This document shows positions 25,690-26,787 of a stretch of 26,787 bases of DNA, in pieces. Numbering within the stretch: the stretch's first letter is position 1; the number at the start of each line of letters is the position of its first letter. The translations under genes were made by a program, and so were the position numbers. Under the pieces are notes generated by a model. That model was not told the DNA's origin. It worked only from the letters and a program-made list of their open reading frames with translations, and did no database searches. The stretch lies in IMG/VR virus record IMGVR_UViG_3300045922_000517, positions 1-26,787 of that record; one strand, 5' to 3'. The DNA is from a virus.

Positions 25690-26163
25690 ATGCCAAGACG
25701 GGTCCAGGGCGCAACCGAAAAAAGTCCTTATCGCCTGAGCAAACGGGCTATCTTGCGCGCCCGAAAATTGCGCGGCGAACTGCCGCCGCCTAGGAAACGA
25801 CGCAACAAATACAACAGCAAAGGTATCTGGATCGATGACATTTACTTTGCCAGCAAGGCCGAAGGCGAGCGCTATCGACAGCTTAAGGCTATCGAGGCAA
25901 CGGGAATTATCACGCGCCTGGAACTGCAACCGTCTTGGTCGGTCGTGGTCAACAACAAACTCATCTGCCACTATCGCGCCGACTTTCGCTATGACGTAAT
26001 CGATGATCGCGGAACGGTGTTAAAACAGGTCGTCGAGGACGTCAAAGGCGTGCCCAACGCGCTTTACAAGCTGAAGAAAAAACTGATCGAGGCGACGCAT
26101 GGCGTTCACATCATGGAGATTCCCGCCGCGCTGATCGACAAGTGGTGGAACCGCCTTCCATGA
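25690..26163 (+). CDS. DUF1064 / PD-(D/E)XK-like endonuclease-type protein
   Basis: The 157-residue protein matches the DUF1064 pattern found in phages: KYNSKGIWIDDIYFASKAEGERYRQL (about 40-65), then LELQPSWSVVVNNKLICHYRADFRYDV and VVEDVKGVPNALYKLKKKL. Candidate nuclease residues are E58/E60, D98 in RADF, and the E116/D117-x-K119 of EDVKG. The N-terminal 40 residues are very basic. It would process phage DNA branches or ends, but the activity is not established. The start is immediately after the preceding stop with GGAG upstream. Its stop overlaps the initiator ATG (ATGA). Confidence 0.75.
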   Translation: MPRRVQGATEKSPYRLSKRAILRARKLRGELPPPRKRRNKYNSKGIWIDDIYFASKAEGERYRQLKAIEATGIITRLELQPSWSVVVNNKLICHYRADFRYDVIDDRGTVLKQVVEDVKGVPNALYKLKKKLIEATHGVHIMEIPAALIDKWWNRLP

Positions 26164-26787
26164 GCAGCGAGACAATCGTTTGGGCTAAGCAGCAGGCTTG
26201 CGGCGATCCCGTGACCAAGGCGGTGTTGCTGGAAATCGCCAACCAAGCGCGGCCCAACGGGGTGTGCGACTATCTTTCGGTCAGGCGGATTGCCGAGGTG
26301 GTCGAGGTCTCGGTGCGCACGGTGCAGCGCCACATCGCCCTGCTTGAGAGCTCTGACCTCACCCGCGGCGGGCTGGGGCTGATCCGCCGGATCAAGCGCT
26401 ACCGCGAGGATGGCGGGCGCTATGCCAATGCATTCGAGCTGGTGGGCTATCAGCCGCCGCTTTCGCTCGGCGCGCGCCCCCGCGACAATTTGTCACCCCC
26501 CCCTGACAATTTGTCACCCCCCCCTGACAATTTGTCACCCCCCCCTGACAATTTGTCACCCCCCCCTGACAGATTGACGGGGACCCCCATGACAAATTGT
26601 CACCCCTTACATAACACTAATGACATGGGAAAGAACATAAATCTACCCTATGACACTAATGACAGGGGAGAGAATATAAATATGAATATAAATATAACCC
26701 CCCCCCCATCTCCTTACGGAGATGGCCCCCCCCCCTTGGAGCGGCGCGCGAGACGCGAACTTGAACCCGACTGGCGTCCCGACGAGC
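26160..26787 (+). CDS. Winged-HTH replication initiator, origin inside gene (partial)
   Basis: ATG 26160 overlaps the previous stop by four bases. The open frame continues to the window end (209 codons visible). Residues ~5-98 read as a winged-helix DNA-binding domain: QQACGDPVTKAVLLEIANQA, VCDYLSVRRIAEVVEVSVRT, VQRHIALLESSDLTRGGLGL (helix-turn-helix about 40-62), and RRIKRYREDGGRYANAFELV. From residue 109 the protein carries DNLSPPP four times, encoded by the iterons, and then an Asn-rich linker encoded by AT-rich DNA. This layout parallels lambda O: N-terminal origin-binding domain, linker over the iterons, C-terminal helicase-recruiting part (beyond the window). The other option is a plasmid-type Rep protein. 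Confidence 0.8.
   Translation, partial: MSSETIVWAKQQACGDPVTKAVLLEIANQARPNGVCDYLSVRRIAEVVEVSVRTVQRHIALLESSDLTRGGLGLIRRIKRYREDGGRYANAFELVGYQPPLSLGARPRDNLSPPPDNLSPPPDNLSPPPDNLSPPPDRLTGTPMTNCHPLHNTNDMGKNINLPYDTNDRGENINMNINITPPPSPYGDGPPPLERRARRELEPDWRPDE
26484..26602 (+). repeat. Iterons: four 21-bp repeats plus two related copies
   Basis: The unit GACAATTTGTCA + C8 + T is repeated exactly at 26484, 26505, 26526 and 26547 (each 21 bp, two helical turns). A degenerate copy starts at 26568 and TGACAAATTGTCA lies at 26590-26602. Each core is a dyad, TGACAA-T-TTGTCA (first copy starts C instead of T). TGACA half-sites recur at 26621, 26651 and 26660. They read in frame as DNLSPPP. Confidence 0.9.
26607..26699 (+). 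other. AT-rich tract beside the iterons (candidate unwinding element)
   Basis: I count 28 G/C in these 93 bases (about 30%), against a GC-rich surrounding. It includes ATAAATATGAATATAAATAT. It directly follows the iterons, as the AT-rich region follows the four lambda ori iterons. Rifts of this type open first at an origin. Confidence 0.7.
26706..26725 (+). other. Hairpin flanked by C-runs within the initiator gene
   Basis: CCATCTCC (26706-26713), loop TTAC, GGAGATGG (26718-26725) form a perfect eight-pair stem. It is flanked by long C-runs on both sides. It may be part of the origin (single-strand start site) or just mRNA structure. Confidence 0.55.

Follow-up and report, generated by a model that had tools for sequence, protein, structure and literature searches.

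Very few uncultured phages have a known replication origin, and one end of a virus record raises the question of whether the origin of this phage lies within its initiator gene. The window, by which we mean the whole 26,787-bp stretch analysed (positions 1 to 26,787 of IMG/VR record IMGVR_UViG_3300045922_000517), ends within a gene that carries a cluster of palindromic repeats. We conclude that this region is very probably the replication origin of the phage, embedded in its own initiator gene, whose N-terminal domain would bind the repeats (hereafter iterons).

Repeats and AT-rich tract in an open reading frame

The frame opens at the ATG at position 26160 and leaves the contig end at 26786, and its start codon shares the bases ATGA with the stop of the upstream gene. 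As a fragment of a virus record, the window lacks everything from the 3′ end of this gene onwards; the C-terminal half of the initiator and any helicase gene of this phage fall outside the contig. The features discussed below are the following.

25690–26163, plus strand: upstream neighbour, a DUF1064 / Holliday-junction-resolvase-like protein (Pfam and PHROG matches)
26160–26786, plus strand: replication-initiator gene, 209 codons present, no stop (frame search)
26160–26468, plus strand: N-terminal winged helix-turn-helix domain, residues 1–103, proposed iteron binder (AlphaFold2 model, PDB matches)
26313–26348, plus strand: recognition helix, residues 52–63 (AlphaFold2 model), with the R53 codon at 26316–26318 and the R57 codon at 26328–26330
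26483–26495, no strand: iteron 1, CGACAATTTGTCA, one mismatch in the dyad (copy 1 starts with C at 26483)
26504–26516, no strand: iteron 2, TGACAATTTGTCA, perfect 13-bp dyad
26525–26537, no strand: iteron 3, TGACAATTTGTCA, perfect 13-bp dyad
26546–26558, no strand: iteron 4, TGACAATTTGTCA, perfect 13-bp dyad
26567–26579, no strand: degenerate iteron, TGACAGATTGACG, a related copy after the four units
26590–26602, no strand: iteron 6, TGACAAATTGTCA, perfect dyad in a reading frame that differs from that of iterons 2–4
26605–26697, no strand: AT-rich tract, 30.1% GC, adjoining the iterons, proposed unwinding element

The core of the array is formed by four identical 21-bp units that stand back to back at 26484–26567 (GACAATTTGTCACCCCCCCCT), so that the dyads recur every two helical turns. 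A preliminary description of this DNA had reported four perfect 21-bp repeats and two related copies, which we find exactly so, the related copies lying at 26567–26579 and 26590–26602. It had also placed a dyad in each repeat; the full 13-bp dyad is perfect in copies 2–4, whereas copy 1 is one base off. When at most two mismatches are allowed, the window contains 10 strand-matches to the dyad where 0.67 are expected, a number reached in none of 100 shuffled sequences, and the exact dyad has 4 matches against 0.00 expected. Every dyad match of the window falls in the iteron cluster and none elsewhere.

The 93-base tract of about 30% GC that had been described next to the repeats was recovered at 26605–26697 and is the lowest-GC stretch of this length in the whole window. 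It contains a direct repeat of 32 nt, the copies of which are 39 bp apart. That repeats and tract fall within the coding frame of a winged-helix protein was likewise borne out, by the extent of the frame (26160–26786) and by a match to the Pfam domain HTH_36. GC skew was tried as an origin locator and discarded: it mostly tracks gene orientation, and the origin was not placed by it. Slippage-prone C runs, four of 8 nt between the iterons (26496–26566) and two of 10 nt 3′ of the AT-rich tract (26698–26707 and 26726–26735), are also present, and the contig breaks off shortly after them.

The initiator family and the comparison with lambda

The window protein matches HTH_36 (PF13730) with 29.4 bits against a curated cut-off of 25 (E = 7e-07). 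It also matches PHROG families named for replication initiation or as O-like (best E = 1e-10), the O-like ones being phrog_391 (E = 1.7e-09), phrog_8540 (E = 3.6e-08) and phrog_678 (E = 4.8e-06). Affinity to phage O proteins was thus recovered among PHROG families and not in Pfam, where Phage_rep_O (PF04492) gave no match at E ≤ 0.1. An AlphaFold2 model of residues 1–103, built from a 67-sequence alignment, has a mean pLDDT of 92.1 and the order of elements of a winged helix, with the recognition helix modelled at high confidence. A fold search with this model returned generic winged-helix matches (best Z 8.6), a list in which the missing lambda O or plasmid Rep carries no weight. The PDB sequence search with the window domain alone gave nothing convincing; the family profile gave weak winged-helix matches, including the N-terminal structures of DnaD and RepA.

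Lambda provides the obvious standard of comparison: it uses O dimers, with iterons and an AT-rich tract that both lie within gene O, the tract being crucial for unwinding (PMC7466680). In the genomes themselves, the lambda iterons fall inside gene O and the annotated P22 origin inside gene 18. Like the proposed origin of the window, that of the O/ori-lambda system, together with those of the Stx phages P27 and 933W and of P22 gene 18, lies midway along the initiator gene and is made of palindromic iterons and then an AT-rich tract. The lambda plan of an N-terminal DNA-binding part, an origin-bearing linker and a C-terminal part (PMC7466680) is the one that we propose for the window also. The sites themselves differ, lambda iterons measuring 18 bp with CCCT/AGGG arms whereas the window has 13-bp TGACA dyads in 21-bp units.

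The proteins differ as well. Lambda O and P22 gp18 match Phage_rep_O at 123 and 129 bits, unlike the window protein, and an hhalign comparison of the window N-terminal domain with lambda O and P22 gp18 is weak (probability 43%, E = 0.00025, 73 columns). Lambda O also matches phrog_678, phrog_391 and phrog_345, in the case of phrog_678 partly over the same profile region as the window protein, which matches several of the PHROG O-like families (phrog_391, 678, 345 and 8540) and of phrog_1032 and phrog_270. These O-like families are annotation clusters, whose names are silent on embedded iterons or iteron sequence. Iteron-plasmid Rep proteins and the winged-helix domains of DnaD and RepA resemble the window in iteron arrays and in the winged-helix DNA binding proposed here, with slight sequence similarity; classic iteron plasmids carry their iterons outside the coding sequence of rep.

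The epithet "lambda-type" given in the preliminary description therefore fits the architecture, with iterons in the initiator frame and an AT-rich neighbour, and does not extend to membership of Phage_rep_O. Judged from sequence, the window origin would work like ori-lambda in plan, and its initiator is placed in the broader PHROG O-like group rather than in that Pfam family. The lambda-like reading as a whole is well supported.

The combination of such an origin with T7-like virion genes had been called uncommon. The T7-like virion is real by Pfam and PHROG matches, but "uncommon" is a weak description in view of MEP301, a complete phage with virion genes of the same T7-like kind (its portal is 33% identical to that of the window phage) and likewise without a family-A DNA polymerase. 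As MEP301 shows likewise, a T7-like virion with another replication module is not unique to the window. An HTH_36 match is present in MEP301 below the cut-off, and a 202-aa winged-helix protein annotated as hypothetical (record MW452941, 34057–34662) is a candidate replication initiator.

Linker iterons and the recognition helix across relatives

Since a motif-based selection would be circular, we gathered relatives by protein similarity only, drawing on two viral scans that returned alignments, on PHROG searches covering about 800 genomes and on named phages; removal of members at ≥75% identity left 130. Exactly repeated palindromes are present in the linker of 57 of these, compared with 0 upstream, 0 downstream and a mean of 0.3 in shuffled linkers. 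The remaining 73 relatives are without an exact repeated palindrome there, among them one (L264) that is 48% identical to the window domain. Spacings are mostly 20–24 bp (62/84), reading frames are mixed in 28 of 56 genes, and in 48 of 56 genes AT content is higher over the 60 bp on the 3′ side of the sites than over the 60 bp on their 5′ side (p = 3e-8, kinship ignored). The half-sites vary across this family and include GTGACA, GTGCA, GTGAAA, GTGTAA, TTAAAC, TACAAC and others. Because they are seen in a set selected by protein only, linker iterons with a 3′ AT-rich tract are common in the initiator family. Within the Sphingopyxis family, 398 genomes were searched for proteins closely related to that of the window, with 2 matches.

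The preliminary description had held that close relatives with the intact protein and no repeats would speak against an embedded origin. Our closest viral relative (L002), which is complete and 83% identical to the window protein over the N-terminal domain, keeps four repeats at 21–23 bp spacing with the left half-site changed to GGTCA. It retains R53 and R57 and has the exchange Q56R, and its sites retain G(−5) and C(−3) with −6 and −4 altered (half-site bases are numbered from the dyad centre). Its C-terminal part matches O-like (E = 1.5e-19) and DnaD-like helicase-loader (E = 1.3e-11) families; an AlphaFold2 model of the full-length protein made without an alignment was uninformative (pLDDT 47). 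The L002 dyads (1197–1277) alternate between GGTCA-ATT-TGTCACC and GGTCAC-YG-GTGACC, the centre of the second type differing from the rest of the family.

A prophage initiator of Sphingopyxis flava (L097/L203) has an N-terminal domain 62% identical to that of the window, the same R53 and R57 and, again like the window, TGACA-N3-TGTCA sites, there spaced at 21 and 24 bp. It is unlike the window in the weakness of its AT-rich tract, and in L002 this tract is short. The C-terminal end of the prophage protein (L097 8354–9466, and L203) resembles the N-terminal domain of DnaA (PF11638, E = 0.0016, below cut-off), and might be a direct helicase-docking module.

The DNA motif was also followed on its own, by scanning viral contigs for closely neighbouring pairs of TGACA-N3-TGTCA dyads; counts refer to the matches listed and are hence lower bounds. 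Among these matches, 48 clusters (that of the window included) lie inside ORFs of at least 180 aa, 43 of them 84–139 codons after the start, and the ORFs are nearly all replication-initiation proteins. Long ORFs with clusters that encode something other than an initiator (L003, L132, L152 and L242) were excluded from the statistics. The initiators selected in this way are very unlike overall, with R53, R57 and L62 as the only nearly invariant positions among the matches listed. In the motif-found genes among the same matches, successive dyads most often stand 21, 22 or 23 bp apart, and AT content is raised over the 60 bp that follow the last site. One frame translates the dyad as DNLS/DKMS, a second translates it as MTNCH/VTKCH and the third gives a stop; 25 of 37 motif-found genes among the matches listed use both coding frames. 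As two frames are used, often by the same gene, it is the DNA and not the peptide that is conserved.

Dyads of the same form also occur elsewhere. Three viral contigs (L003 11906–12015, L093 and L107) carry arrays of 7–9 TGACA-N3-TGTCA dyads at an almost exact 15-bp spacing, tighter than initiator iterons and outside initiator genes by the tests used. Bacterial genomes (L127–L246) contain many such pairs that resemble operators of some regulator, with spacings that go by lineage: 15 bp in lactobacilli and relatives, 26 bp in alphaproteobacteria and 23 bp in Lachnospiraceae. We rejected the bacterial pairs as relatives of the window array, as they are mostly outside long ORFs, with spacings such as 15 or 26 bp.

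We then compared recognition helices with half-sites, leaving the window protein out of the covariation counts. C(−3) is found in 14/14 genes with R57 and in 0/43 without it. G(−5) is found in 22/23 genes with R/K53 against 1/34 others, and A(−5) in 15/21 genes with Q53 against 4/36 others. Clustering at 50% identity gives the same picture: 8/8 versus 0/17 for R57/C(−3), 13/13 versus 1/12 for R/K53/G(−5), and 5/6 versus 0/19 for Q53/A(−5). An unguided scan of all helix positions by all base positions ranks 53/−5 first, with 56/−6, 54/−2 and 57/−3 among the leaders. Residues 53 and 57 act separately, because the genes that have R57 and no R53 still carry C(−3) (6/6). Both arginines are present in 38/39 of the motif-selected proteins (among the matches listed) and in 21/130 of the protein-found ones; TGACA-N3-TGTCA occurs in 11 of those 21, compared with 0/109 others. 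The window protein itself has R53 and R57, and its own sites carry G(−5) and C(−3), as the family predicts.

In a tree built without the helix columns, R57 changes 11 times and C(−3) likewise changes 11 times. Shared ancestry is not formally excluded as a source of the correspondence, because well-supported branches provide only three independent pairs, which all agree for R57 and are too few for a test. These counts, with P-values that take no account of ancestry, argue strongly that the half-site follows the recognition helix across the family. The family also points strongly to the N-terminal winged-helix domain of the window protein as the binder of the dyads in its own gene. The correspondence is probably a modular code, in which residue 53 sets base −5 (Arg or Lys giving G, Gln mostly A), residue 57 sets base −3 (Arg giving C) and residue 56 influences base −6, each gene storing both helix and sites. 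In the open-access literature we found nothing on linker iterons in HTH_36 initiators or on a helix–iteron code, no binding or replication experiment on these HTH_36 members, and no paper on the exact dyads, the matches being primer-like strings. Embedded origins are already known; the helix–iteron correspondence may be the new part, as far as the open-access literature allows novelty to be judged.

Competing readings and the embedded design

Could the repeats serve another purpose? They might be operators, the protein being a transcription regulator that controls the early operon from sites in its own gene, with replication starting elsewhere. Palindromic sites with a winged-helix domain are the usual repressor plan, and the bacterial TGACA-N3-TGTCA pairs, mostly outside long ORFs, look operator-like. 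The window sites, however, lie deep inside a gene and have no other copy in the window; several of them stand in helical phase and lead into an AT-rich tract. Moreover, the family is assigned to replication initiation, and the C-terminal part of L002 is O-like and helicase-loader-like. We therefore consider operators improbable. A site for partition, incompatibility or copy-number control of a plasmid-like prophage, distinct from the start site, is marginally less probable again. Plasmid iteron arrays also serve incompatibility and control, and some relatives were found on records listed as plasmids, but no ParA/ParB-like gene was detected by Pfam and PHROG among the neighbours tested, and the adjoining AT-rich tract and the initiator gene itself indicate a start site. 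One array could fill both roles.

The repeats might also matter as protein only, as a proline-rich low-complexity linker (DNLSPPP) that arose by replication slippage and has no function as DNA. The exact tandem copies with their 8-nt C runs do look slippage-prone, and copies 1–4 of the window are in one frame. Yet the last window dyad is in another frame, and relatives translate the dyad as either of the two peptides, with frames mixed in both sets (25/37 among the matches listed and 28/56). Selection on a peptide explains neither the palindromes nor their correspondence with the recognition helix. We reject this explanation, the least credible of the three, on the grounds that the dyad is translated in two frames, frequently in both by a single gene.

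For an embedded replication origin, we propose the following course of events. One dimer of the N-terminal domain would presumably occupy each dyad; R53 would recognize G(−5), and R57 the G that pairs with C(−3). From lambda and the family, several copies bound on one helix face would be expected to form a nucleoprotein complex, which would strain and open the adjoining AT-rich tract. The C-terminal part of lambda O serves helicase recruitment; by this example and that of the L002 C-terminal part, the missing half of the window protein may recruit the replicative helicase or its loader. Sites and protein lie in one ORF, and the phage therefore inherits them as a matched pair.

Taken together, our results suggest that lambda's origin-in-initiator design is a general plan, realized with many iteron sequences and in several unlike initiator subfamilies. 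Perhaps the embedded design keeps protein and site together during module exchange. If the rule is true, a single ORF would suffice to find the origin of an uncultured phage and its specificity, and how any one residue of the recognition helix affects the origin could be predicted and tested. If the code is true, the family would offer a natural data set on protein–DNA recognition and on the co-evolution of initiators with their origins.
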